A stretch of DNA of 20,155 nt from a virus, in IMG/VR virus record IMGVR_UViG_3300025909_000124, positions 1 to 20,155 of that record; one strand, written 5' to 3'. Made by a program: the position numbers and the translations under genes. The notes under the pieces were generated by a model. The model was not told where the DNA came from. It ran no database searches and saw only the letters and a list, made by a program, of their open reading frames with translations. Within the stretch, counting starts at the first letter, position 1; each line of letters starts with the position of its first letter. Of the stretch, positions 189-15,906 are shown one piece after another.

Positions 189-446
189 ATGAGCATGCCG
201 CTCATGGCGATTGCCGTCCGGGCGGCTCCAATAGGAGCAGTTCGGATGGAAAGGCTACTGAGCAAGAAGGCGGTTCGGGAGATTGTTGGCGTATCGTTCG
301 CCGAGATCGCCAGGAGAGAGCAGCAAGGCAGGTTCCCCAAACGCATCCGCGACGGTGGGCGTGTCTTCTGGGCTTCCAGCGAGATCGAACAGTACGTGCA
401 GTCGAAGATCGCCGCGAGGGACGCCGCCGGCTCCAAACGGGGCTAG
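189..446 (+). CDS. AlpA-family helix-turn-helix regulator
   Basis: This is a small DNA-binding protein, 85 aa from ATG 189 or 66 aa from ATG 246. The core from MERLLSKKAV onward fits the AlpA/MerR-like winged HTH pattern: a first helix, the turn VGVSFAEIARRE, then GRFPKRIRDGGRVFW and a SSEIEQYV helix. The GR.P...R.G.R..W...EI..Y signature is typical of AlpA proteins, which in phages and plasmids act as small transcription activators or excision directors. The shorter start matches the usual family length of about 65-70 aa. The longer one is supported by a -10 box placed for leaderless expression from 189. It stands alone, with a strong terminator directly after it, and may control the neighbouring replication module. 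That role is inferred. Confidence 0.75.
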   Translation: MSMPLMAIAVRAAPIGAVRMERLLSKKAVREIVGVSFAEIARREQQGRFPKRIRDGGRVFWASSEIEQYVQSKIAARDAAGSKRG

Positions 447-1048: not shown

Positions 1049-1804
1049 ATGATCCTGATCGGCACCGACCCCAGCAGACTTTTCCCGTACATACCGAGGA
1101 GCGACTACCTCCTCATCGCCGGGAGCGACTACATTTCACACGTGCGCCATCGCGCAAAGAAGTTCGACCCGACCAAGCACTGTTTCAATCCGCTGTCCGG
1201 GATGACCTACCACAAGGCCCGCCAGATGCGGGACCTGTTCTCTGCCACCTTTCCAGAGAGCGAGAGCACCCTCACCAAGAGCGGAGGGCTGCGGCATATC
1301 CTCAAGACCTTGGTGCGGGACAAGCCGGCCACGCTGGACGACCTGGCACCCGCTCCATCGAAGACCGATACCGGGCTCCAGTGGGCGCATGAGAAGGTGG
1401 AGGAGCTGTTGCTCTCGCCCATCCTGTCGCGTGTCCTTGAGAGCAACCTCTATGTCTTTAAGGGGACCATCCACGCTGTCCTTGACCGAGAGTCGCTCGG
1501 CGACTTCGATTGCCGGCTCTTAGGCAGGCTGCTCATCATGCATTATCCCGGAACGGTAGTGGTGCCAGATTTCGGCTTCTACGCCCTTCCTGCCCACGTG
1601 TCCTTGATACGGGAGAGGAGGCTCATCGCGAGCATCCGAGAACTCGCCGAGGTGCCTGAATTGAGCACCGATGTCCTATTCAGCGAGGAGGTGCTCCCGG
1701 CCCGGTGCACGGCTGACGATGCCGAGACGCTCGCCACGTATCGATCGGGCCACCGCAAGGGGACGGAGGGCTATTCTATGTACGTCGAGAACGCCATCGC
1801 TTGA
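1049..1804 (+). CDS. putative degenerate RecA-fold/TraG-like protein without a P-loop
   Basis: A protein of 251 aa from ATG 1049 (262 aa from TTG 1016; neither start has a clear SD). I see no Walker A motif. The middle and C-terminal parts nevertheless follow the element order of HerA/VirD4-type ATPases: a strand and FNPLSGMTYHKARQ segment like the 'DP...FNPL' region of coupling proteins, a TVVVPDFGFY strand in a Walker-B-like position, an arginine-rich LIRERRLIASIRELAEVPEL segment where those ATPases have their sensor region, and CTADDAETLATYRSG near the end. It is followed 30 bases later by an intact ATPase of that class, so it may be a non-catalytic partner or paralogue. This is inferred from motif order only; it could also be an unrelated protein. 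Confidence 0.6.
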   Translation: MILIGTDPSRLFPYIPRSDYLLIAGSDYISHVRHRAKKFDPTKHCFNPLSGMTYHKARQMRDLFSATFPESESTLTKSGGLRHILKTLVRDKPATLDDLAPAPSKTDTGLQWAHEKVEELLLSPILSRVLESNLYVFKGTIHAVLDRESLGDFDCRLLGRLLIMHYPGTVVVPDFGFYALPAHVSLIRERRLIASIRELAEVPELSTDVLFSEEVLPARCTADDAETLATYRSGHRKGTEGYSMYVENAIA

Positions 1805-1834
1805 CTCTTGCGTCGGGGCGGAAAACTCTGCCGC

Positions 1835-3838
1835 ATGTTCCCTCTGTTCTCCCACTGGACGACGGAAGAATCCGATGACCCGGACGACGACCCGTATATC
1901 GTGCGCCTGTACAAACGGGTGTATCGCGATCTTCTCACCGCACGGGGCATCAAGAAGCTCCCGACCTTCCGGGTAGAACGAGACCCCGGCCGCTTCCTTG
2001 GTCCCGCGCTCGCAAATTTCAACAAATGGCTGGAGACGGAATTCCCGTCACAACATCCGCTCGATAAGGCGCTGAACGACACGTGGAGCGACGCCAAGGC
2101 ATCAGCCTTCACGGATGAGGAGTGGCGGCCGTACAAGCAGCACGAATTCACGCTCGCTCTCTGGGCGCACCTCCACGAACATCGAGAGCAGATTCAAAGC
2201 TCGCTGGACTTAGCGGTATTCTCGCTCACCACACAGTTCTATCCCGCGCAGTTGGCTGCTGCGGATGGGCCTTCGCCTTGGCGTGTGCCACTCTATCAAC
2301 TCCTTCCTGACCCAGCCAAGGCCGTTGAGCACGTGCACGACACCTTTGGCCGCGGTACGTTCAGCTATGATCAGAAGCGGCTTTTTGTCAGTTCGTTTGT
2401 GGCCCTGCACGATCTCGCTAGATCGGTCACAATGGCCCACCATCGGCTCTGCGCCCGTCGGAAGTCAGACCCCGAGAGGACCTATCCTGGAGATTTCGAC
2501 CTCCCTGCGAGAGACCTGATCCGCGAATACTTTTCCGGTACCCCTTTACTCGATTTCTTCATGACCGAGGTCCCTGTTCCGTGGGAGAACAAGGACCGTT
2601 TCCGGCATACGCACATCATCGGCGGGACCGGTGCCGGCAAGACCACGCTCCTCAAGCATCTCATCACGCACGACATCTGGTTCGGGCGCGACAGGCCTTC
2701 GATGGTGATCGTCGACCCCCACTCCGTCCTGGCCTCCTGGCTCACGCAGATGAAGCTGCCGAACGACCGGCGCCTCATCCTCATCGACCCCAGGGATATC
2801 GAGCACACGCCGGCCATCAACCCCTTCGCCATTCAAGGCGTCAGCGAGTTCGACCGGGAACGTGCGACCAACGACGCCCTGGAGACGCTTGAGTACGTCA
2901 TGGGCGCGCTGGACCTTGAGATGACCGGGAAGCAGGCGACCCTGTTCACCTACGCCGTGCGATTCCTGCTAACCTTCCCCCAGACGATGGGGCGCAACGC
3001 CACACTGCGCGACTTGCGCGACCTCCTGAAGAACGCGGAGCCATACCGCGCCGCAATAGAGAAGCTGCCTGACACGCAGCGGAACTTCCTCACTCAGGAG
3101 CTGCTGGAAGTGAAGACGAGTCGCTTCGGCGACACGCGCGGGGAGATCGCCCGGCGCATCGACGGCATCCTCGCGAATCCCACGCTGGAGCGGCTCTTGT
3201 GCGCTCCCGAGACGAAGGTCGACTTCTTCGCGGAATTGAACCGTGGCTCGACCATCGTCATCGACACGGCCGAGGACTTCCTAGGAGAGAGCTCAAAGCT
3301 CTTCGGTCGCATGTGCATCGCGCTTGTCATGCAGGCGCTCAAGCGCCGCTTCCCCATCCCGGAGGAGAAGCGTTATCCGACGTATCTGATCGTGGACGAG
3401 GCCCACAACTACTTCTCCGACAGGATGGAAAAAGCACTCACCGACCTTCGTAAGCTCCGGTGCGGCTGCATCTTCGCTCATCACTACCTGGGGCAGTGCA
3501 CGGAGAGCTTGCGCGGCGCGCTCATGGCCAACACCGCCATAAAGTTCGCCGCTGACGTGCAGAACGACGCGAAGCCCATGGCCGACGCGATGAGAACCAC
3601 GCCCGCCTTCATCCACGCGCTGCCCAAGTATACGTTCGCGGCGTACATCAACGGCGTTACCCCTCACGCGGTGGGCTTCCCGGTGCGGGAGTTCCGGGAG
3701 ATCAAGAAGACCCCGACGGAGATGGCCGAATTCCTCGAGCGAAACCGAAGGTTGGTGTCGGGCACGCCAAGGCCGACACCGGCCGCTGCGAGCTCTCCCC
3801 AGGACGAAGACGGCGACCTCAGCCCGAGCTGGGAGTGA
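1835..3838 (+). CDS. HerA/VirD4-type P-loop ATPase (type IV coupling protein-like)
   Basis: A 667-aa DNA-pumping ATPase of the HerA/FtsK superfamily. An N-terminal helical domain of about 250 aa precedes the motor. Walker A is GGTGAGKTT (about 263-271), the following strand is SMVIVDPHS, LILIDPRD and INPF follow, and Walker B is YLIVDEAHNYF (about 517-527). It ends with a proline-rich, acidic tail. The motifs and the DPHS/NPF segments fit VirD4/TraG coupling proteins and related 'type IV secretion DNA-binding' ATPases. I see no obvious N-terminal transmembrane helices, unlike classical VirD4, which suggests a soluble motor. The start at ATG 1835 is preferred to TTG 1808. It sits in one + strand operon with the P-loop-less protein upstream and the replication-relaxation protein downstream. 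Its likely role is moving DNA during replication, partition or conjugation-like transfer. Confidence 0.85.
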   Translation: MFPLFSHWTTEESDDPDDDPYIVRLYKRVYRDLLTARGIKKLPTFRVERDPGRFLGPALANFNKWLETEFPSQHPLDKALNDTWSDAKASAFTDEEWRPYKQHEFTLALWAHLHEHREQIQSSLDLAVFSLTTQFYPAQLAAADGPSPWRVPLYQLLPDPAKAVEHVHDTFGRGTFSYDQKRLFVSSFVALHDLARSVTMAHHRLCARRKSDPERTYPGDFDLPARDLIREYFSGTPLLDFFMTEVPVPWENKDRFRHTHIIGGTGAGKTTLLKHLITHDIWFGRDRPSMVIVDPHSVLASWLTQMKLPNDRRLILIDPRDIEHTPAINPFAIQGVSEFDRERATNDALETLEYVMGALDLEMTGKQATLFTYAVRFLLTFPQTMGRNATLRDLRDLLKNAEPYRAAIEKLPDTQRNFLTQELLEVKTSRFGDTRGEIARRIDGILANPTLERLLCAPETKVDFFAELNRGSTIVIDTAEDFLGESSKLFGRMCIALVMQALKRRFPIPEEKRYPTYLIVDEAHNYFSDRMEKALTDLRKLRCGCIFAHHYLGQCTESLRGALMANTAIKFAADVQNDAKPMADAMRTTPAFIHALPKYTFAAYINGVTPHAVGFPVREFREIKKTPTEMAEFLERNRRLVSGTPRPTPAAASSPQDEDGDLSPSWE

Positions 3839-3841
3839 TGC

Positions 3842-3847
3842 TAAAAT
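3842..3847 (+). promoter_or_regulatory. -10-like box TAAAAT ahead of the replication-relaxation gene
   Basis: TAAAAT sits just after the stop of the ATPase gene. A short hairpin, GCGGC-GTCAT-GCCGC (3864-3878), lies in the leader that would result. It could give the next gene its own promoter, about 100 bases before ATG 3946. Confidence 0.35.
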
Positions 3848-3945
3848 AGTTTCGGTATCCATGCGGCGTCATGCCGCACCCCCGAGGCCATGCCTTCCAA
3901 CACCGAACGATTACACACGGTCCCGCGGCCATTACGTTGCCGCGC

Positions 3946-4833
3946 ATGAAGACCGACGCGCTCGCACGCCGGCTGCGCTTTGCTCCCCCAGCCCCGAAGG
4001 TCGCCCGCATCATCCCGCAGGAGGCAGACCGGCTCCTCTTCGACGCGATCCATCGCCATGGCCCCTTGCCCTCCGGCTACCTTTACGAGCTATCCAAGCA
4101 CGTCCGGAAGGACTTGATGACGCTCAAGCATCGGCTCACGGAGTTCTACAACGGCGACAAGGCCGGACCATTTCTGACCCGCCCTCCCCAGCAGTTCGCC
4201 GGGTACGAGGCGCGCTATCAGCACTTGGTCTATGACCTTGCTCCCCGCGCTCTTGCCTTCATCGGCAAGCCGCACCGGACGCGCAACGACCCGTTCCTCC
4301 ACCAGCTCATGCAGGCGTGCGTTGGAGCCTCCCTGGAGCTCCTCATCACCCGTGCCGGATTGCGCTACATCGGGCGCGATGAGATCCTCAAAGGCAAGCC
4401 GCTTCCCCTTGCGCTCGGCAACGGCAACACCCTCATCCCGGACGACCTGTTCGGCATTGAGTACCCGGAGGGCTTCCGCTTCTTCGCGGTGGAGATCGAC
4501 CGCAACACCGAGAGCATCGAGCGCAAGAACCTCGGCTACAACACCTTCGGGAAGAAGGTCGAAAACTACTTCCAGGCGCTGGAGGACAAGCGCTTCAAGG
4601 AGTGGGGCATCCCGAACCTCTCCGTGCTCGTCGTGACGACAAACGCCACGCATGCGCTCAATATGCTCGGCTACATCGAGCGGCAGGACCGCCCGCGCTA
4701 CAAGGACCGCTTCGCCTTCCAGGTGGAGCCGTGTTTCGGTGCCCTGTGGCGCGTTCCCAAGACACTGCTAGCGCAGCTGACCGAGCAGCCGTGGCAGACC
4801 GCCTCTGGCACCAAGGACATCACGAAGGCATAA
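3946..4833 (+). CDS. replication-relaxation family protein
   Basis: A 295-aa protein from ATG 3946. An upstream in-frame ATG at 3871 would add 25 residues whose codons and composition look non-coding. The N-terminal half has a winged-helix look (LLFDAIHRHGPLPSGYLYEL, then SKHVRKDLMTLKHRL, then a YDLAPRAL segment), as in the Replic_Relax family needed for replication and plasmid DNA relaxation. The C-terminal half resembles the family's nuclease-like domain: FRFFAVEIDRNTESIERKN, YNTFGKKVENYFQAL, LSVLVVTTNATHALNML and a final FGALWRVPK. The VEIDR and K residues could be catalytic, but this is not established here. It closes the operon with the VirD4-like ATPase, a pairing seen on plasmids and integrative elements, and probably recognises or processes the element's origin. 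Its TAA stop overlaps a terminator that reads in the opposite direction. Confidence 0.75.
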   Translation: MKTDALARRLRFAPPAPKVARIIPQEADRLLFDAIHRHGPLPSGYLYELSKHVRKDLMTLKHRLTEFYNGDKAGPFLTRPPQQFAGYEARYQHLVYDLAPRALAFIGKPHRTRNDPFLHQLMQACVGASLELLITRAGLRYIGRDEILKGKPLPLALGNGNTLIPDDLFGIEYPEGFRFFAVEIDRNTESIERKNLGYNTFGKKVENYFQALEDKRFKEWGIPNLSVLVVTTNATHALNMLGYIERQDRPRYKDRFAFQVEPCFGALWRVPKTLLAQLTEQPWQTASGTKDITKA

Positions 4834-5062: not shown

Positions 5063-5248
5063 TTAGTCCTCGCGCGCTTCGAACAGCACGAGCTCGCCGG
5101 ACACGGCGATGTTGGGGCGCAGCTTCACGCTGATGCCGTTGGCCTTCTCGGACTCGAACGCCCAGCCGCCACCAACGTCGGTGTAGAAGCGGTTGCCGTT
5201 CTCGCCCTCGGCCACGCACACCCGGTAGTCGGGTTTCTTGCCTGCCAT
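5063..5248 (-). CDS. small hypothetical protein, 61 aa
   Basis: Starts at the minus-strand ATG 5248 with a good Shine-Dalgarno sequence (AAAGGAGAAGG just upstream) and ends in a terminator at 5033-5054, so expression is well supported. The product (MAGKKPDYRVCVAEGENGNR and onward) is soluble with no membrane segment. The pattern YRVCVAEGENGNRFYTDVGGGWAFES, then NGISVKLRPNIAVSGELVLFE reads as a short all-beta protein, like many small 'hypothetical' proteins that phages and plasmids use in replication regions. I do not recognise a named family. It is divergent from the primase-like gene at 5356, with about 107 bases between the two starts. Confidence 0.75.
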   Translation of the reverse strand: MAGKKPDYRVCVAEGENGNRFYTDVGGGWAFESEKANGISVKLRPNIAVSGELVLFEARED

Positions 5249-5355: not shown

Positions 5356-5940
5356 ATGGCATTCATCGACTTTGCAGCGGTGAAGGAGGCCGTAAGCTTC
5401 ACTGACGCGATCCAGTACCTTGACCTGGCAATGAAGAAGGCCGGCAACCAGTGGCGCGGCGCATGCCCTGCATGCGGCGGCCAGGAGCGCGGGCTCGTGC
5501 TCACGGAAGGCCGCGGCTACTACTGCTTTTCGGACAAGAAGGGCGGAGACGTTATCGCGCTCGCATCGCACGTGCTCGGCGTGCAGGCGAAAGAGGCGGC
5601 GCAATTTCTCGCTGAGAAGGCCGGAATTGTACCAGTACCTAGTGGTACCGTACAGTCCAAAGTTACCCGTCCAGAGAGCGAGGAGGGCAAGCCAGGAATG
5701 GCTCCTCTGAGCTACTTGGAGCACGCGCATGATCTCGTCTTGGCTCTGGGTTTTGCCCCTGAGTTCTGCGAGCTTCATGGCATCGGCTACGCCCCCAAAG
5801 GGGTAGTCCGAGGTTCGGTCGCTATCCCCTTCCGGGACAGGGACGGCGTGCTTCTCGGTTACATCGGTTTGCAGGACATCACGTACCTTCCGACCGACTT
5901 CCAGGTATCCAACGTCGTCCCGCTCAAGCGGCCGGCGTGA
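5356..5940 (+). CDS. CHC2 zinc-finger primase-like protein, no TOPRIM
   Basis: A 194-aa protein. The N-terminal part carries a primase-type zinc-binding module: CPAC (Cys37, Cys40), then GRGYYCFSDKKGGDVIALA (Cys57), followed by helices, as in DnaG-like CHC2 fingers. The fourth ligand position (usually CFGC or similar) reads CFSD here, so Cys is replaced. After a linker (about 95-120) comes HDLVLALGFAPE and IGYAPKGVVRGSVAIPFRDR, DGVLLGYIG, which resembles the start of the primase catalytic core (TOPRIM-N-like region). It stops before any TOPRIM acidic motif would occur. It is probably a DNA-binding primase fragment that works with another replicase subunit or the host primase, or a decayed primase. 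A strong SD and an extended -10 precede it. Confidence 0.75.
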   Translation: MAFIDFAAVKEAVSFTDAIQYLDLAMKKAGNQWRGACPACGGQERGLVLTEGRGYYCFSDKKGGDVIALASHVLGVQAKEAAQFLAEKAGIVPVPSGTVQSKVTRPESEEGKPGMAPLSYLEHAHDLVLALGFAPEFCELHGIGYAPKGVVRGSVAIPFRDRDGVLLGYIGLQDITYLPTDFQVSNVVPLKRPA

Positions 5941-6989: not shown

Positions 6990-7098
6990 TACAATTGAGA
7001 CAATGCGCTTTATTTGCGCTATTCATACCTGTTCTTATTTCTACATGGCTTCTCATGCCGAACGCCTATGCACACCTCCAGCGATGGAGGTGTTTTTT
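6990..7098 (+). ncRNA. candidate short plus-strand RNA ahead of the HNH gene
   Basis: A -10-like TACAAT (6990-6995) would start RNA near 7002, and a strong terminator ends it at 7098, giving about 96 nt. The ATG at 7003 opens a frame that runs past the terminator and is not plausible coding. Small hairpins (TGCGC-TTTATT-TGCGC-like, and GGC-TTCTCAT-GCC) lie inside. It may be a small RNA, or a leader or decoy left over from insertion of the endonuclease gene. Confidence 0.3.
7072..7098 (+). terminator. strong terminator upstream of the HNH gene
   Basis: ACACCTCCA-GCGA-TGGAGGTGT (7072-7093), a 9-bp stem with a GCGA (GNRA) loop, then a run of six T (7093-7098). It isolates the endonuclease gene from upstream transcription. 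Confidence 0.9.
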
Positions 7099-7100
7099 CA

Positions 7101-7109
7101 TGCGATAAT
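7101..7109 (+). promoter_or_regulatory. extended -10 TGC-GATAAT of the HNH gene
   Basis: TGCGATAAT, an extended -10, ends six bases before ATG 7116, so the transcript should start at the ATG and be leaderless. It lies immediately after the terminator at 7072-7098. Confidence 0.6.
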
Positions 7110-7115
7110 AGACGT

Positions 7116-7607
7116 ATGTGTCTCTGCTACTGCGACATTGCTGACTGCGGCGACTACCTTGAGCTCATTGTCCGGAACAAGAAGAGCGAGGAGGTCGCCC
7201 GATCCAAGTTCGACCATGAATATCGGGACGCTGTTGCCGCCCTCAAATGGAGCCTTTCAAGCGGTGGCTATCCCCGCAACATCAAGACTCGCAGCAACCT
7301 CCACCAAGTCGTCATGGGCCGGCGGGCCGGATACGAGGTTGACCATATCAACGGTGACAGGTTGGACAATAGGCGCATCAACTTACGCTGGGCGACCCAT
7401 GCGGAAAACGGCCGCAACCTCAAGCTATCCAAACGGAACAAGAGCGGCTGCCGAGGTGTCTGGTGGGACCAAACGAACAAGGCCTGGATGGTGAAGATCA
7501 CCCTCAACTATAAGCAGATGCACCTTGGGCGTTTCAACGACTACGACGAGGCGGTTAGGGTCAGGAAGGAGGCAGAAATCCACCACTACGGCGAGTTCAC
7601 CCGCTAG
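7116..7607 (+). CDS. HNH endonuclease with AP2 DNA-binding domain
   Basis: A 163-aa protein, a free-standing homing-type nuclease. The HNH fold is visible as VMGRRAGYEVDHINGDRLDN then RRINLRWATHAENGRN, with Asp76-His77 and the Asn residues of the HNH pattern (about 68-101). It is followed by an AP2 domain (about 110-155: SGCRGVWWDQTNKAWMVKI, then HLGRFNDYDEAVRVRKEAE), the usual partner in phage HNH-AP2 homing endonucleases. ATG 7116 is chosen over the upstream TTG 7014 because an extended -10 sits six bases before it and a terminator would cut a longer leader. Such genes nick or cut DNA to spread between phages. Its own promoter and the bordering terminator fit an independent selfish insertion. 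No intron or intein is visible around it. Confidence 0.9.
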   Translation: MCLCYCDIADCGDYLELIVRNKKSEEVARSKFDHEYRDAVAALKWSLSSGGYPRNIKTRSNLHQVVMGRRAGYEVDHINGDRLDNRRINLRWATHAENGRNLKLSKRNKSGCRGVWWDQTNKAWMVKITLNYKQMHLGRFNDYDEAVRVRKEAEIHHYGEFTR

Positions 7608-7654: not shown

Positions 7655-8422
7655 ATGCTTAATCTTCACAGCGGCGGCGAGCTCATCACGCTCGACGCTC
7701 TCTCACACGTTCCAGTACCGGAAGCCACTCCTACGCATTGCCCGCTTCCGCACATCGAGCTGGTCAACATGGTCAAGTACGCGCTCGGCTATTACGGGCA
7801 CGAGGTCGTGGACGAGCAGCACGCAATCGACAAGGACGGGCTCCGCTACTTCGGGCTCCTGTCCCTGCGCAGCGACTACGGGGACTACACTGACACTGTC
7901 GGTTTGCGGAATTCCGCAGACAAAAAATTCCCCATCGGCATATCCATCGGCGCCAAGGTCTTCGTGTGCTCGAACCTCAGCTTCTGCGGCGACTACGTCA
8001 TCCGCAGGAAACATACCCCTGGCGCGAAGAAGGACTTGCCGGGTCTCGTGGCCGGCGTAATCGAGCCGCTGCGCGAGAGCCGTATCGAGCAGGCGCAGAC
8101 GTTTCAGATGTACCGCTCGACGGCGCTGCGTCCCCGGCACGTCGACCACGCCATCATGCAGCTGTTCCGGGAAGGCGTCATAGGCGTCCAGCGGATCGCC
8201 GAGGTGCTGGCGGCATACGAGCAGCCTCCCCATGATTGGGGAGCTGAGACGGCCTTCCGGCTCTTCAACGCGGTGACGTTCACCATGAACGGCCGCGTGA
8301 TGGAATCGCCGGGCACGACCGCCAAGCTCCACACCCTCATGGACGCTGTCTGCGAGGAAGCGTTCTGGGACAAGGCCCAGGTGCCACACCAGGAGCAGCA
8401 GCTACTGCCGTATTACGGTTGA
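7655..8422 (+). CDS. DUF932-like protein
   Basis: A 255-aa soluble protein. The core TVGLRNSADKKFPIGISIG, then AKVFVCSNLSFCGDYVIRRK and a following HTPG closely follows the DUF932 pattern (RNSHDKS...G..VFVC.NL.FSG....RKHT). This family is common on phages and plasmids and has no settled biochemical role. A helical C-terminal half follows, with FRLFNAVTFTMNGRVMESPG near the end where DUF932 proteins usually carry an 'N..T...K' segment. It has a strong SD and its own extended -10, and ends at a UUCG terminator. It may act in replication, DNA binding or anti-defence; I cannot say which. Confidence 0.75.
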   Translation: MLNLHSGGELITLDALSHVPVPEATPTHCPLPHIELVNMVKYALGYYGHEVVDEQHAIDKDGLRYFGLLSLRSDYGDYTDTVGLRNSADKKFPIGISIGAKVFVCSNLSFCGDYVIRRKHTPGAKKDLPGLVAGVIEPLRESRIEQAQTFQMYRSTALRPRHVDHAIMQLFREGVIGVQRIAEVLAAYEQPPHDWGAETAFRLFNAVTFTMNGRVMESPGTTAKLHTLMDAVCEEAFWDKAQVPHQEQQLLPYYG

Positions 8423-9995: not shown

Positions 9996-10388
9996 ATGGC
10001 TGCCGCCAAAAGCAGTGGGAAGAACACAGCCAAGCGCGGCAACACGGACAACCTCATCCCGTGGAAGCCGGGCCAGAGCGGCAATCCCAACGGGCGGAAG
10101 CTCGGCACCCGCAATCGCAAGAGCGTCATCATGGATGCCATCAAGCGGCTCGCCGAGGCGCAGAAGATGGACGCCGCGGAGCTTGAGGACGCCATCCAGG
10201 CGGTCGGAATCCAGAAGGCGATGAAGGGCAGCTTCTTCCACTGGGCCGAGATCAGCAACGGCCTGTACGGCAAGATCACTGATAAGATGGACCTGACCAG
10301 CGGAGGCAAGACCTTGGCTGACCTAATGACCATCGCCAATGGCAAAACAAAGCGAGGAGGAAGTACTACGAAGCCGGATTTGGAATGA
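9996..10388 (+). CDS. DUF5681-like protein, putative small terminase subunit
   Basis: A 130-aa basic protein. The N-terminal part has WKPGQSGNPNGRKLGTRNRK (about 23-42), the signature of DUF5681 proteins (KPGQSGNPNGRPKGSRN), which are usually found next to phage terminase large subunits. A helical middle (IMDAIKRLAEAQKMDAAEL) and a tail that overlaps the terminase gene follow. The position directly upstream of terL, with a 50-base overlap, suggests a DNA-recognition (small terminase-like) role in packaging, though this is inferred from position and charge. Start ATG 9996 lies just downstream of AAGGA, and translation may be coupled to the 40-aa gene upstream. Confidence 0.75.
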   Translation: MAAAKSSGKNTAKRGNTDNLIPWKPGQSGNPNGRKLGTRNRKSVIMDAIKRLAEAQKMDAAELEDAIQAVGIQKAMKGSFFHWAEISNGLYGKITDKMDLTSGGKTLADLMTIANGKTKRGGSTTKPDLE

Positions 10389-11706
10389 GCCGGAGTTCTT
10401 CTACCGCGAGGTGCTCGGGTACGAGCCGTGGCAGAAGCAGCTCGACATCAGCTACTCGGTCCGTGACCACCGCAACACCGCGATCCGCAGCAACAACGGC
10501 TCGGGCAAGACCTACCACATAGCGCGTGAGGCGCTCCGCTTCCTGTACGGCCAGGGGCCTGACGCGATCGTCATCAACACCGCGCCCACGTGGACGCAGG
10601 TGGAGAACCAGTTCTGGCGGTATCTGCGCGATGCCTACCAGAAGGCCAATTACCCGCTCGGCGGCAACCTCCTCAAGACCAAGCTCGACATCGACGAGAC
10701 CTGGTTCGCCATCGGCCTCGCCAATGACGAGAACAACATGGAGGCGTTCCAGGGTTGGCACGCGCGCAAGATACTCGTCATCTTCGACGAGGCCTCAGGC
10801 ATCTCCCCTCGCATCTTCGAGGCCGCGGCCGGCGCCATGGCCGGAGGCGAGCTGGTTCGCTTCGTGCTGCTCGGCAACCCCACGCAGAACAGCGGCCCGT
10901 TCTTCGACGCCTTCCGCGACCCGACCTTCAGCAAGATCCACATCAGCGCCTTCGACACGCCCAACGTGCAGGCAAAGAAGCAGCTCGTGCCCGGCCTCGT
11001 CACATGGGACTGGGTGGAGGAGATGCGCCGCAAGTACGGCGAGGACAGCGATATCTACCGCGTCCGCGTGCTCGGCCACTTCCCCCAGCACGCCAGCGAC
11101 ACCCTCATTTCCATAGACAGCATCGAGGCGGCGTTCAGCGCCGACCGCGAGCTCACCAACCAGGATGACTGCGTTGCCGGGCTCGATGTGGCCCGCTTCG
11201 GCGACGACGACAGCGCCTTGGTCCGCCGCACCGGCAACCGCGCGAAGGTGGAATGGGTAGTCAACGGCAACGACACCATGACGCTGGCTGGCAAGAGCGC
11301 GATCTACCTGCGCGCCAACAAGTCCGTCCGGCTCTTCATCGACATCACCGGGGGCCTCGGTACCGGCGTATTCGACCGCCTGCGGGAGCAGCCTGACATC
11401 TCAGGCCGCGTCTTCGGCGTGAACGTCGCCAGCAAGGCGCGCGACGAGGCAGAGCACATCAACATCCGCATCGAGAGCTGGGTGAACGTGCGGGACTGGC
11501 TACGGGACGCCATCCTCGAGAAGCACGAGGGCTTCTACGAGCTGGCCCAGCCCAAGTACAAGATCACCAGCGCCGGCAAGCTCCAGCTGGAGAGCAAGGA
11601 GGACATGAAGAAGCGGGGCGTGCCCTCGCCTAACGTCGGCGACGCTCTCGCCCTCACCCTTTCGCGGCCGACAGAAGGGGAGAACCTCGGCCTCGTGTGG
11701 ATTTAG
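10339..11706 (+). CDS. terL: terminase large subunit
   Basis: A 455-aa packaging motor and nuclease that cuts DNA into genome units and pumps it into the prohead through the portal. The N-terminal ATPase shows Walker A SNNGSGKT (51-58) and Walker B ILVIFDEAS (about 145-153, Asp150-Glu151), then a coupling-like LLGNPTQNSGPF (177-188). The C-terminal RNase H-like nuclease has its acidic residues in GLDVARFGDDDS (Asp283), LFIDITGG (Asp335) and NVGDALALT (Asp435). All ATPase and nuclease motifs are present, so it should be active. ATG 10339 lies inside the preceding gene (overlap 50 bases) and gives the right N-terminal length. Followed by the portal gene after 17 bases. Confidence 0.95.
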   Translation: MAKQSEEEVLRSRIWNEPEFFYREVLGYEPWQKQLDISYSVRDHRNTAIRSNNGSGKTYHIAREALRFLYGQGPDAIVINTAPTWTQVENQFWRYLRDAYQKANYPLGGNLLKTKLDIDETWFAIGLANDENNMEAFQGWHARKILVIFDEASGISPRIFEAAAGAMAGGELVRFVLLGNPTQNSGPFFDAFRDPTFSKIHISAFDTPNVQAKKQLVPGLVTWDWVEEMRRKYGEDSDIYRVRVLGHFPQHASDTLISIDSIEAAFSADRELTNQDDCVAGLDVARFGDDDSALVRRTGNRAKVEWVVNGNDTMTLAGKSAIYLRANKSVRLFIDITGGLGTGVFDRLREQPDISGRVFGVNVASKARDEAEHINIRIESWVNVRDWLRDAILEKHEGFYELAQPKYKITSAGKLQLESKEDMKKRGVPSPNVGDALALTLSRPTEGENLGLVWI

Positions 11707-11711
11707 CCCTG

Positions 11712-11717
11712 TATACT
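11712..11717 (+). promoter_or_regulatory. -10 box TATACT of the portal gene
   Basis: TATACT ends six bases before ATG 11724, so transcription should start at the ATG. It lies just after the terL stop. There is no SD in the short gap. Confidence 0.65.
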
Positions 11718-11723
11718 TGAGCC

Positions 11724-13811
11724 ATGAACCTCTTCTCGTGGGCGCGCAGCATCACGTCCCGCACCTCCAAGCGAGAGATCGGCTTCCCGGAGAGCTGGAT
11801 ACCGATGACGGGCGGCTACCCGAGCGTGAACCAGTCGCACCTGCTGGAAGCCAACAAGGAGTGGGTGTTCGTCGCCGTCGACAAGGTGGCGTCGTCGATG
11901 GCAGGCGTGCGATTCAAGGCCATGCGCTACTCCCGCGCAGGGGACGACCAGGAGGTGTTCACCGGGCCGCTCGTCGACTTCCTTGAGTCGCCCGCGCAGA
12001 ACTTCACCGGCAAGGACTTCATCTACCTCAATGCGGTCTACAAGGAGCTGACCGGCAATGCGTTCTGGGAGCGACTGCACGGCGGCCGCAAGCTCTCGCC
12101 ACTCGTCCCCACCCGCGTCACGCCGGTGCTCAGCAACGGGCAGCTCGTGGGCTACCGCTACACCAATGGCTCCGACCAGCGCACCATTAAACTCAAGGAC
12201 CTGCTGCACGACCGCTACATCGACCCGGCCAAGCCGTACTGGGGCAAGGGCAAGCTGGAGCGCATCGCTCCCTGGGTGGACGCCAGCGCGTTCGCGACCG
12301 AACTCCTCAACCGCTTCTTCGTGAATGGCGCCACCTTCGGCGGCTTCATCGAGACGGAGGAGGAGAGCGAGGAGCGCATCAAGCTCATCAAGGCCGGAAT
12401 CAGCAACGACCACGTGGGCGTCGCCAAGGCGCATAAGATCGCCGTGCTCCCCAAGGGCAGCAAGTTCACCAAGGGCGTGGCCAACATGGCCGAGATGGAG
12501 ATGGGCGCGACCGACGACCGCTACCGCGATAAGATACTGGCGGCGTTCGGCGTGCCAAAGACATTGGTAGGGCTGACCACAGAGGTGAACCGCGCATCGG
12601 CCGAGGCCAGCGAGTACATCTACGCCAAGTACACGCTCAAGCCGATCGCCGACCAGTTCCTGGAGTTCCTCAACGCCAACGTGGCAGGCCTGCTCGACCC
12701 TACCGGCAAGCAGTATTTCGCATACGACGACTTCGTGCCCGACAACATGGAGCTCAAGATCAAGGAGCGTGAGAGCTCGCTCAACAAGCAGCCGTACAAG
12801 ACCGTCAACGAGGTGCGCGCAGAGGTGGGCCTTCCCCCGGCACAGGGCGGCGACGTGGTGTACGGCACGCCCGGCCAGGCTCCGTTAGGCGAGCCGCAAC
12901 CGGCCGCCGTTCCCGCAACCGCACCCGAGGACGACAACGCGGACGAGGAGCCGAAGAAGGCGCTGCCTGCTCGCGCCCGCTCAGCCTTCCGCCGCGAGCG
13001 CATCTTCGACGGCATAGTCCAGAAGGTGGCGGAGATCGCCGAGACACAGGACCTGGACGCCGAGGATCACCGCGCCTTCGTGGACCGCGTCGATGCCAGG
13101 AAGGGCAGTCTCGAGGAGACGGTCCGCCAGTTCAACGCCATCCAGGAGAAGGAGGTGCTGGAGCGCGTCCAGCGCATCACCAAGGCGGTGGACCAAAACG
13201 AGCTCTTCGACATGACCGGCGACGTGGCGCTCCTCGTCGATTTCGTGTCGCCCATCCTGAAGGACCTCATGCTGGAGCAGGCAGCCGCCGACTTCATCGG
13301 TCAGGAGTTCCCCGGCACGTTCGACCAGGCCAAGCCCCGCATCGCGCTCACCATCGAGACGGCGGCAAAGCGGCTAGCCACCAGCTACAACAGCACGACC
13401 GCCAAGCTCATCGCCAAGCAGCTCAACGAGGGCATCGAGAAGGGCGAGGACCTCCGCCAGCTCACGCAGCGGGTCAACTCCGTTTACGACTACTCAAACA
13501 CCGTGCGCGCCGAGACGGTGGCGCATACGGAGGCCTTCTACATCGCCAACGAGGGCAGCCGGGAGGCCTACCGGCAGAGCGGCGTGGTGAAGACCATGCG
13601 CTGGTACACCGCCGAGGACGAGAGGGTGTGCCCATTCTGCGGGCCGGAGGACGGCCGCATCATCGGCGTCGACGACGTGTTCTACGAGAAGGGCACCACC
13701 CTGTCAGTGGACGGCAAGACGCTGGACCTCGATTACCGCACCATCGACGTGCCGCCGCTCCATGCGCGGTGCCGCTGCCGCATCCTCCCGGAGGAGATCG
13801 CCATCAATTAG
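11724..13811 (+). CDS. portal protein fused to a MuF/SPP1 gp7-like domain
   Basis: A 695-aa fusion. Residues about 1-400 resemble HK97-family portal proteins (NLFSWARSITSRTSKREI, LLEANKEWVFVAVDKVASSM, LVDFLESPAQNFTGKDF, KTLVGLTTEVNRASAEASEY), which form the dodecameric DNA channel at the capsid vertex. After an Ala/Pro-rich linker (about 380-415), the C-terminal part is a MuF-like head-morphogenesis domain: a helical region, then WYTAEDERVCPFCGPEDGR (Cys636, Cys639) and VPPLHARCRCR (His680, Cys683, Cys685), the classical D.R.C..C...G / P..H..CRC signature. In most phages these are two genes, so the fusion is notable. It is preceded by a TATACT box and a short gap after terL. Confidence 0.92.
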   Translation: MNLFSWARSITSRTSKREIGFPESWIPMTGGYPSVNQSHLLEANKEWVFVAVDKVASSMAGVRFKAMRYSRAGDDQEVFTGPLVDFLESPAQNFTGKDFIYLNAVYKELTGNAFWERLHGGRKLSPLVPTRVTPVLSNGQLVGYRYTNGSDQRTIKLKDLLHDRYIDPAKPYWGKGKLERIAPWVDASAFATELLNRFFVNGATFGGFIETEEESEERIKLIKAGISNDHVGVAKAHKIAVLPKGSKFTKGVANMAEMEMGATDDRYRDKILAAFGVPKTLVGLTTEVNRASAEASEYIYAKYTLKPIADQFLEFLNANVAGLLDPTGKQYFAYDDFVPDNMELKIKERESSLNKQPYKTVNEVRAEVGLPPAQGGDVVYGTPGQAPLGEPQPAAVPATAPEDDNADEEPKKALPARARSAFRRERIFDGIVQKVAEIAETQDLDAEDHRAFVDRVDARKGSLEETVRQFNAIQEKEVLERVQRITKAVDQNELFDMTGDVALLVDFVSPILKDLMLEQAAADFIGQEFPGTFDQAKPRIALTIETAAKRLATSYNSTTAKLIAKQLNEGIEKGEDLRQLTQRVNSVYDYSNTVRAETVAHTEAFYIANEGSREAYRQSGVVKTMRWYTAEDERVCPFCGPEDGRIIGVDDVFYEKGTTLSVDGKTLDLDYRTIDVPPLHARCRCRILPEEIAIN

Positions 13812-13828
13812 AAGGGGAATTGCCCGTG

Positions 13829-13834
13829 TATACT
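13829..13834 (+). promoter_or_regulatory. -10 box TATACT of the prohead protease gene
   Basis: TATACT ends seven bases before ATG 13842, again matching leaderless initiation. The box is preceded by GTG and the gap from the portal stop has no SD. Confidence 0.65.
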
Positions 13835-13841
13835 AATCACC

Positions 13842-14741
13842 ATGAAAGACGCATTAAAGAACATCAGCCAGGAGCTTGCGGAGAAGATCGTCGAGCGCTT
13901 CCAGTCAGACGACATCAAGCGATTACTAGCTGATACCAAGGCAGCGTCAGAAGCCGAAAGCGGCATATTCGAAGTCGTCATCACCACCGAGAACCTGGAC
14001 CGCTACCAGGAGGTCATCAAGCTCGATGGCTGGGAGACCGAACGGTACCTCGCCAATCCCGTCGTACTCTGGGGACACGACCACAACCGCATCATCGGCA
14101 TGGCCACCTCCCTTGAGGTGCGCGACGGCAAGATGATCGCCAAGGGCAAGTTCGCCCCGACCGAGGAAGGCCAGGAGAAGCGCCAGCTCTACGATGCCGG
14201 CTTCCTGCGCGCCACGTCCGTCGGCTTCATGGAGAAGGAGCGCGAGGGCAACCTGATCACCAAGGCGGAGCTCCTGGAGTTCTCCTTCGTCTCCGTTCCG
14301 GCCAACCCGTACGCCCTCTCGCTGGCCATGGAGCGCGATTTCTCCGTCAACGAGCTCGTCACCAAGGGCATCATGTTCGTCGAGAAGTCGGAGGAGGCTG
14401 AAAATGAGCCTGAGACGGCCGCAGACGCGGCTGATGAGGAAACGGCCGAACCGGAGGAGCAAGACGCTCCAGAGGGCGAAAACGAGCCCCAGGAGCGCGA
14501 TTTCAGTACCAAGCAGCTCTCGCCGGTCATCGACAGCCTCAAAGCGGCAGTCATCGCCTTAGAAGCACTCGGCACCAAGTCCGAGGAGCCTGAGGGTGAT
14601 GACGCTGCCGAGGCTGACACCGAGGAGGAGCGCAAGCTGGCAGAATTCAATGCCAAGCGGAAGCTCATCCAGGAGGCCGCAACCGTGATAGGCGATATCC
14701 TTGCCGAGGCTCGCCAGGCGCTCAAAGCGCGCGGATTATAA
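13842..14741 (+). CDS. prohead protease with acidic scaffold-like C-terminal extension
   Basis: A 299-aa HK97-type (U9/S78 class) prohead protease, which cleaves the capsid delta domain during maturation. The core shows ENLDRYQEVIKLDGW, LANPVVLWGHDHNRIIGMAT with the His in WGHDH (His79), a beta-rich FAPTEEG segment, and LLEFSFVSVPANPYALS with the Ser in EFSFV (Ser148). The catalytic His and Ser are therefore present. From about residue 185 the sequence becomes strongly acidic (ENEPETAADAADEETAEPEE), then helical, a scaffold-like tail of about 110 residues, so one gene may serve as both protease and scaffold. That is common in this family. The coding end overlaps the -10 box of the capsid gene. 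Confidence 0.9.
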   Translation: MKDALKNISQELAEKIVERFQSDDIKRLLADTKAASEAESGIFEVVITTENLDRYQEVIKLDGWETERYLANPVVLWGHDHNRIIGMATSLEVRDGKMIAKGKFAPTEEGQEKRQLYDAGFLRATSVGFMEKEREGNLITKAELLEFSFVSVPANPYALSLAMERDFSVNELVTKGIMFVEKSEEAENEPETAADAADEETAEPEEQDAPEGENEPQERDFSTKQLSPVIDSLKAAVIALEALGTKSEEPEGDDAAEADTEEERKLAEFNAKRKLIQEAATVIGDILAEARQALKARGL

Positions 14742-14742
14742 T
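14737..14742 (+). promoter_or_regulatory. -10 box TATAAT of the major capsid gene
   Basis: A perfect TATAAT that overlaps the TAA stop (14739-14741) of the protease gene. It ends 21 bases before ATG 14764, giving a leader of about 15 bases that contains no Shine-Dalgarno. A strong extra promoter for the capsid gene would raise output of the most abundant protein. Confidence 0.65.
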
Positions 14743-14763
14743 CGGCCTAATCTTACCCATTTC

Positions 14764-15906
14764 ATGGAATTAGCAGACCTTAAAAAGGAGCTGTTCGACC
14801 ACGTAGACGAGGGGCTCAAGGAGATCGTCTCCGAGGAGCTCAACCCGCTCATCGCCGAGAAGGTGGAGAACGCGGTTCGCGAGTCCCGCGCCCTCGACGT
14901 GCTCAACGGCAAGGAGTCGCTCAGCAACGACTCCAAGCAGGCGCTCGTCGATGACGTGCGCCGCATCGCTGCCAACGAGAAGGCAGCGTACCTGACCGTC
15001 AACGACCAGACGGGCGGGTATCTCGTTCCGACGGAAGTCCACAACGAGATCATGCGCATCGCCGAGACCACCGGTATCGTCGCCCGCGACGCCCGGAACT
15101 TCGGCGTCACCGACATCGAGATTCCGATCTACACCGGCTCTGCCATGCAGGGCTCGTACGTCGGCGAGGACGAGGCCGGCGATGAGACCCAGGAGGACCT
15201 CGGCGTCGCTCGCCTTGTCGAGGCCAACTGGATGAACATCGTTCGCCTGTCGAACAAGCTCATCAGCAAGGCCAACGTCAATGTCGCCGAGTGGCTCATG
15301 GCCATCGTCGCGGAAGGCTTGGCCTACCGTCTCGATCGCGAGGGCTTCATGGGAGGCACCTACGCCGGCTCGCCGTTCGTCGGGCTTCTCCAGTCGGCCG
15401 ACGTATCCGCACAGACGCTCGCATCGACCAAGACGGGCTTCGAGGACTTCGACCTCGACGAAGCATCCGTCGCAATCGGCTCGCTGCCAACCGCAGCACT
15501 CGCTGACGCGGCGTTCTACTTCCACCGTACCGTGTGGGCCAAAATCCGCACGCAGAAGAGCGGAGACAACTACGTCTTCGGCCAGAGCAATCTTGCCAGC
15601 CTGCGCCGCCCGAGCGGTATCCAGCCGGTAGGCCAGATCCTCGACTTCCCGGTCTACCAGGTGGACGTGCTCCCGGCGTACTCTTCGAGCGGCGTCAGCA
15701 CCAAGTTCGGCGCCTTCGCCAACCTCAAGCTCGCGCTCGCGCGCGGCGAGACCGGCCCGATGTCGGTTGCCCGCTCCGACAGCGCCGTCATCAACGGCAA
15801 GAGCACCTTCGAGCGCAACCAGACTGCCATGCGCTTCACGCATGACCACGCGCTCTCGATCATGCTTCCGGATGCAGCCACCACCCTTAAGACCGCGGCT
15901 TCCTAG
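14764..15906 (+). CDS. major capsid protein, HK97 fold
   Basis: A 380-aa HK97-type capsid protein. An N-terminal helical delta-like region (MELADLKKELFDHVDEGLKE, about 1-70) precedes the mature fold, which probably begins around residues 78-90 (ADQT-like segment YLTVNDQTGGYLVPTEVHNE, the typical N-arm). Then come IYTGSAMQGSYVGEDEAGDE (E-loop region), EANWMNIVRLSNKLISKANV, YRLDREGFMGGTYAGSPFVG, FYFHRTVWAKIRTQKSGDNY and the final strand region with FAFANL-like features. ATG 14764 is chosen over 14701 because it has a -10 box upstream and avoids overlap with the protease. It is the shell subunit; the delta domain should be removed by the upstream protease. Confidence 0.93.
   Translation: MELADLKKELFDHVDEGLKEIVSEELNPLIAEKVENAVRESRALDVLNGKESLSNDSKQALVDDVRRIAANEKAAYLTVNDQTGGYLVPTEVHNEIMRIAETTGIVARDARNFGVTDIEIPIYTGSAMQGSYVGEDEAGDETQEDLGVARLVEANWMNIVRLSNKLISKANVNVAEWLMAIVAEGLAYRLDREGFMGGTYAGSPFVGLLQSADVSAQTLASTKTGFEDFDLDEASVAIGSLPTAALADAAFYFHRTVWAKIRTQKSGDNYVFGQSNLASLRRPSGIQPVGQILDFPVYQVDVLPAYSSSGVSTKFGAFANLKLALARGETGPMSVARSDSAVINGKSTFERNQTAMRFTHDHALSIMLPDAATTLKTAAS

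Follow-up and report, generated by a model that had tools for sequence, protein, structure and literature searches.

Gene Content of the Locus

The region at positions 1049–4833 of a virus record of 20,155 bases was analysed for its gene content and probable function. The whole record is referred to as the window, and all positions are those of the window unless another contig is named. A sequence-only reading had placed here a module of three genes, which encode a RecA-fold-like protein lacking the P-loop, a VirD4/HerA-type ATPase with intact Walker motifs and a replication-relaxation protein. All three genes were found at these positions, and each identification agreed with the profile and structural results given below.

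1049..1804, + strand: gpA, a P-loop-less VirB4/VirD4/HerA-fold protein (pseudo-ATPase) of 251 residues, from its predicted structure
1808..3838, + strand: DNA-translocase ATPase of the VirD4/HerA superfamily, coupling-protein-like, 676 residues, from Pfam and PDB profile matches
3871..4833, + strand: PF13814 (Replic_Relax) protein, MOBC-relaxase-like, from the PF13814 match and an AlphaFold2 model

The Translocase ATPase

The ATPase gene starts at TTG 1808, and an alternative ATG lies at 1835. Walker A (GGTGAGKT) and Walker B (LIVDEA) were both intact, and the Pfam families TrwB_AAD_bind, DUF87/HerA and T4SS-DNA_transf matched the protein. The PDB profile matches were DptH, TrwB, HerA and FtsK, and the best of them was DptH, which belongs to a restriction system. 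Among the 24 relatives, TrwB_AAD_bind was matched by 17, DUF87/HerA by 14 and TraG-D_C (the TraM-recognition domain) by 4. With a single exception, the 24 phage ATPases examined had a P-loop that a pattern search could recognise. The window ATPase had no transmembrane (TM) segment (maximum 19-residue hydropathy 1.19) and no adjoining anchor gene. Several phage ATPases carried N-terminal TM segments, and elsewhere, in phages or islands, a small tail-anchored protein was encoded directly upstream. The RecA-type nucleotide-binding domain with Walker A and B that characterises type IV coupling proteins (T4CPs) was present in the window ATPase, whereas the N-terminal TM domain of most T4CPs was absent. 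Therefore, the protein was termed coupling-protein-like rather than a T4CP.

The PF13814 Protein

Relatives of the PF13814 gene pointed to ATG 3946 as its probable start. The window protein matched PF13814 with an E value of 2.7e-5 and a score of 24.8 bits, just under the gathering cut-off of 25.3, and 21 of the 27 aligned family members matched the same profile (best 1.8e-16). The AlphaFold2 model had a predicted local distance difference test (pLDDT) value of 90. Its fold assignment rested on a second-look structural alignment together with Pfam and the conserved residues, and Foldseek returned nothing at E 0.001 or better. Residues 49–133 of the model aligned with a MarR-like winged helix (Z 10.5), and residues 141–310 aligned with the nuclease domain of the type IIS enzyme PaqCI, at a middling Z of 9.4 over 136 residues (root-mean-square deviation 3.5). 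D191 and E208 were invariant in the family alignment (27/27), and K229 was present in at least 90% of the sequences; a sequence search of PDB with the family gave no match. PF13814 relaxases constitute the MOBC family (PMC5357655). MOBC relaxases are of the PD-(D/E)XK type, and the N terminus of pAD1 TraX forms a winged helix (PMC12857230). The predicted structure had the combination known from MOBC reports, in which a winged helix is joined to a PD-(D/E)XK domain with conserved acidic residues. The protein was thus assigned by homology as a putative MOBC-like relaxase.

gpA, a Motor-Fold Protein Without a P-Loop

The window gpA had no match in Pfam, PHROG, NCBIfam or PADLOC, its homologues had marginal Pfam matches only, and the sequence search of PDB gave nothing beyond a 21-residue chance match. 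The AlphaFold2 model, which was built from a 27-sequence alignment, had a pLDDT of 93. The top Foldseek matches of this model in PDB were Cag-beta (a VirD4 protein), VirB4, HerA and TrwB (best E 1.8e-4), and a second structural aligner gave VirB4 at Z 17.1 over 238 of the 251 residues and TrwB at Z 13.6. Moreover, profile comparison of gpA with the adjacent ATPase family gave an hhalign value of 87% across the C-terminal half, including Walker B. The Walker A motif was found in none of the 34 gpA open reading frames, some of which represent one contig fetched twice, and P-D-F-G-F-Y replaced DE at the Walker B position. According to its predicted structure, gpA is a motor-fold member of the VirB4/VirD4/HerA superfamily that probably lacks ATP hydrolysis. 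The protein aligned over its full length with the motor domains of VirB4 and of the VirD4 proteins TrwB and Cag-beta, and differed from them in the missing P-loop and in the PDFGFY replacement. gpA represents an undescribed family and might act in nature to regulate VirD4/HerA machines.

A related arrangement was seen in an element of a Rhodoplanes metagenome-assembled genome (L024:1951-3177), where the gpA slot holds a 408-residue ATPase paralogue with a short P-loop (GKRAGKT) and DR instead of DE at Walker B. This paralogue may be a pseudo-ATPase of independent origin or an intermediate on the way to gpA.

Distribution of the Module Among Phages

The scan of IMG/VR with gpA gave 24 matches and the bacterial scan with the ATPase gave 19 loci; a first-pass viral scan with the ATPase alone as query found nothing. 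The module recurred in more than 20 divergent temperate phages, mainly of the alphaproteobacterial type, beside CHC2, DUF932 and AlpA genes and usually with a tyrosine integrase. Fifteen contigs, including the window, followed with gaps the order integrase–AlpA–gpA–(small gene)–ATPase–PF13814–CHC2–DUF932. In about ten further contigs, gpA lay on the opposite strand at the far end, and the integrase, AlpA, ATPase, PF13814 and CHC2 genes lay at the other end. Head genes resembling those of the window were present in L007, L014 and L017, and L006 had a different terminase. The isolate Parerythrobacter lacustris RS5-5 carried a prophage with the module on a 625-kb contig, in which host genes (carboxylesterase and DHDPS family) lay upstream of the integrase. 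Among 398 genomes of the order of Parerythrobacter, gpA was found in one and the PF13814 family in eight.

The gpA-only loci suggested that gpA was unrelated to the ATPase–PF13814 pair. This idea was weakened by a whole-contig search, in which the ATPase and PF13814 genes were found in 19 of the 22 IMG/VR contigs detected through gpA, even where gpA was unlinked. Two of the three remaining contigs end at CHC2, and the third (G016) shows no module genes in the stretch read. A related explanation is that gpA acts as a dominant-negative inhibitor of the HerA motors or type IV secretion systems (T4SSs) of rival elements and lies only incidentally near the pair. The motor fold without a P-loop, the separate position of gpA in about ten contigs and its more even conservation (29–45% identity to the window protein, compared with 20–38% for the phage ATPases) all speak for such a role. 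It was nevertheless judged improbable in view of the 19 of 22 co-occurrences and of the correlation between the gpA and ATPase identity patterns (r 0.44, with 0 of 2000 permutations as high), for which shared phage ancestry alone may account.

The sequence-only reading had proposed that the virus may replicate as a plasmid (phage-plasmid). This part was not borne out, because the relatives have a tyrosine integrase and an AlpA-type gene beside the module and one prophage lies on the 625-kb isolate contig; for the window itself, integration is inferred from these relatives. No ParA or plasmid Rep was present among the Pfam and PHROG families listed for two near-complete relatives. The phages resemble P1-like and other phage-plasmids in carrying plasmid-type genes, and differ from them in the integrases of the relatives, one of which is chromosomal. 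Mobilisable plasmids can arise from phage-plasmids of the P1 type (PMC10879196). A chimeric contig of plasmid and phage sequence was also rejected, since the gene order was shared by numerous independent contigs and by an isolate.

The ATPase–PF13814 Pair Outside the Phages

The search for this gene order in other genomes, which the earlier reading had suggested, recovered the full set in many divergent phages and the pair alone on plasmids and islands. The pair was found without gpA on plasmids of Sulfitobacter, Methylomagnum and Sinorhizobium, where it adjoined other replication genes and no phage genes. It was also found without gpA in chromosomal islands, some of which had integrase or defence genes. 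The earlier view of the pair as belonging to plasmids and integrative elements was supported, the pair resembles that of MOBC integrative and mobilisable elements (IMEs), and the homologues were not confined to chromosomal replication operons. No gpA was detected in the plasmid and annotated-phage collections by tblastn with the window protein, nor in the islands or plasmids examined; these negatives are limited to the searches made and leave absence unproven. The ATPase tree required the label to switch between phage and island four times or more, and hence the pair appears to have moved between phages and islands; several long branches call for caution. The neighbouring gene on the Sinorhizobium plasmid was related to the PF13814 family (hhalign 88%).

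Three pair-bearing plasmids (L002, L003 and L005) were typed as non-mobilizable by MOB-suite, and this branch of MOBC may thus escape such typing. The Microcystis phage Mwe-JY31 (L004, 11700-15988) encodes a VirD4-like ATPase together with a ParA-like product and a protein homologous to that of the DUF932-family gene of the window. It is recorded as a phage and may be plasmid-like. Its ATPase neighbour was considered as a PF13814-like protein and was not convincing (hhalign 9%).

Candidate Functions of the Cassette

The candidate roles suggested by the sequences and models are that the cassette moves, copies or protects virus DNA. The tentatively preferred reading, held at a little under even confidence, is that an integrating temperate phage here carries a DNA-processing cassette similar to that of IMEs, used mainly for conjugative mobilisation of the excised genome. 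Its basis in sequence and predicted structure is the MOBC-type PF13814 nuclease with a DNA-binding winged helix, the translocase encoded directly before it and the P-loop-less gpA. After excision, the PF13814 protein would nick the phage circle at an origin, and the ATPase would engage the nicked DNA–protein complex and drive the movement of the strand. gpA, itself without hydrolysis, would be a partner of the motor or act as its gate. Mobilisation of the excised genome would then rely on the T4SS of another element in the host, and the phage would gain a further way of passing between cells. As in some integrative and conjugative elements (ICEs), this nick may serve in addition to initiate replication of the excised DNA.

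An IME is expected to have an integrase, a relaxase and optionally a coupling protein, without its own T4SS. This gene set was complete in the relatives, with the relaxase assigned by homology; the integrase, which lies upstream of the module in the relatives, is outside the window, which begins after that position and just before AlpA. None of the 11 phage contigs tested contained VirB4, whereas 10 of 11 host genomes did, as expected of an element that is mobilisable and non-conjugative. Likewise, in two streptococcal IMEs a VirD4 coupling protein and an integrase accompany PF13814/MobC (PMC5357655), and CloDF13, the MOBC prototype, encodes its own coupling protein MobB (PMC7431656). The IME-like core and the VirB4 pattern together led us to favour mobilisation ahead of replication, its chief competitor, and of defence, which ranks lower.

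Several observations weigh against mobilisation. The TM domain of CloDF13 MobB is essential for mobilisation (PMC7431656), whereas the window ATPase lacks both a TM segment and an anchor gene. No cluster of direct and inverted repeats resembling an origin of transfer (oriT) was found in the intergenic stretches tested, and a conserved block between the PF13814 and CHC2 genes was rejected as a candidate origin as it contains a small gene. The window protein scores just below the PF13814 cut-off, and ATPases of the VirD4/HerA superfamily also act in defence. Furthermore, almost every gpA phage has kept the pair. Such retention suggests that the pair functions in each phage cycle, and replication would account for this better than occasional mobilisation. 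Confidence was kept limited because no oriT was found, the window motor has no membrane anchor and near-universal retention fits replication too.

Replication initiation without conjugation is accordingly the next reading to be weighed, although we regard it as rather doubtful. The PF13814 nick would start strand-displacement replication, the ATPase would translocate along or remodel the DNA, the CHC2 protein would help in priming and the resulting concatemers would feed the terminase. The module occupies the expected early replication position, with the CHC2 and DUF932 genes next to it, almost every gpA phage has it, and the window ATPase is soluble. No DnaB-type helicase, initiator or ParA was present among the Pfam and PHROG matches listed for the two near-complete relatives, and ICE relaxases can double as replication initiators, as in ICEBs1 (PMC5357655). 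On the other hand, homologous pairs occur in chromosomal islands and on plasmids that have separate replication proteins, and the scan of the family library detected no catalytic primase domain in the CHC2 protein. One PHROG labelled DNA polymerase was matched among the best 25 families listed. VirD4/HerA motors are not known to act as replicative helicases.

Prophage defence or superinfection exclusion, in which a HerA-type translocase would load the PD-(D/E)XK nuclease on invading DNA with gpA as a regulator or decoy, was considered quite unlikely. HerA–nuclease pairs are established defence systems, and in the PADLOC scan the ATPase matched mad8 (E 3.4e-18) and HerA models. The leading DptH match and the position of gpA at the far contig end, away from the integrase, in some phages point the same way. 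However, neither gpA nor the PF13814 protein matched any PADLOC model at E 0.01, PF13814 is a relaxase family in the literature, and the cassette adjoins the integrase and AlpA genes in nearly every phage. Moreover, the islands bearing the cassette carry separate defence systems as cargo: one pair adjoins an operon resembling a cyclic-oligonucleotide-based antiphage signalling system (CBASS) and another lies near a GmrSD gene. In the former, a Sphingomonas island (L019:9448-16104), the pair is followed by genes for a DncV-like cyclase and for E2 and ThiF proteins.

Comparison With Known Systems

The cassette resembles MOBC modules, such as MobB–MobC of CloDF13 and the VirD4–PF13814 pair of class 8 streptococcal IMEs, in that a motor and a PD-(D/E)XK/PF13814 relaxase occur together without their own T4SS. 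It differs from them in lying inside a complete tailed phage, in the extra gpA, CHC2 and DUF932 genes, in the absence of a TM domain from the window motor and in the lack of a detected oriT. The streptococcal IMEs also have an integrase nearby, which is a serine integrase there and a tyrosine integrase here. The CloDF13 record had no annotated MobB or MobC and was not used as a yardstick. HerA–NurA and the HerA–nuclease defence complexes (DUF4297–HerA, SIR2–HerA and MADS mad8) likewise encode a motor of the HerA/VirD4 superfamily with a nuclease. Unlike in those complexes, the nuclease here is a winged-helix PF13814 protein without a PADLOC match, and the genes are located with the integrase and AlpA.

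The earlier statement that no such phage system had been described held in part. A similar pair has been published in the temperate Bacillus tyroviruses (Thrax phages), in which gp17 and gp18 are an adjacent T4SS protein and replication-relaxation protein (PMC9703825); no description of the set of three genes that includes gpA was found. The tyroviruses, likened here by description only, are large Bacillota phages with ParM and a ParG-like gene, their sister phages lack the cassette, and no gpA is reported. What is new here is the fixed association of the cassette with a lineage of integrating phages of the alphaproteobacterial type, together with the gpA family. It is customary to regard phages and conjugative elements as distinct vehicles. 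In this diverse lineage of integrating phages, a relaxase/motor cassette of the mobilisable-element kind is a permanent component and not a one-off capture. An unlikely, broader reading is that this widespread tailed-phage lineage is also conjugatively mobilisable, leaving the cell inside virions or, by hijacking a T4SS, as DNA, with gpA switching between the routes. Since the standing cassette is present in the prophage of an isolate, dual transfer, or use of the relaxase in phage replication, is directly testable.

Neighbouring Genes

The other features of the window were as follows:

189..446, + strand: AlpA-type excisionase/regulator (PF05930, E 2.9e-6; PHROG excisionase families, best E 3.7e-8)
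5063..5248, − strand: small antisense gene (MAGKKPDYRV...) between the PF13814 and CHC2 genes, with a similar open reading frame in the same place in L006 (9833-10192, − strand)
5356..5940, + strand: CHC2 zinc-finger primase-like protein (PF01807, E 1.3e-8)
7014–7607: HNH endonuclease that matches AP2 weakly, situated between the CHC2 and DUF932 genes
7655..8422, + strand: DUF932-family protein, a constant neighbour of the module (relatives match PF06067; synteny)
9996..15906, + strand: terminase small and large subunits, portal–MuF fusion, protease and major capsid protein

The terminase, portal–MuF, protease and capsid genes downstream of the module placed the window in a tailed-phage context, in agreement with the earlier placement in a phage. 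The host of the window would be of the alphaproteobacterial type, as assigned through its relatives. A counterpart of the small antisense gene is probably also present at the equivalent position in L079 and L007, and the HNH gene is possibly a homing endonuclease.

In L006, a tRNA-Gly (CCC) gene lies directly upstream of the integrase (3485-3560) and is a likely attachment site; no second copy of at least 15 bases that would form an attL/attR repeat was found within the contig. Among the genes of the L006 and L007 phages, matches to a PvuII-type restriction endonuclease (PF09225) and to N6/N4 methylases were observed at L007:11386-13275, placed by gene order.

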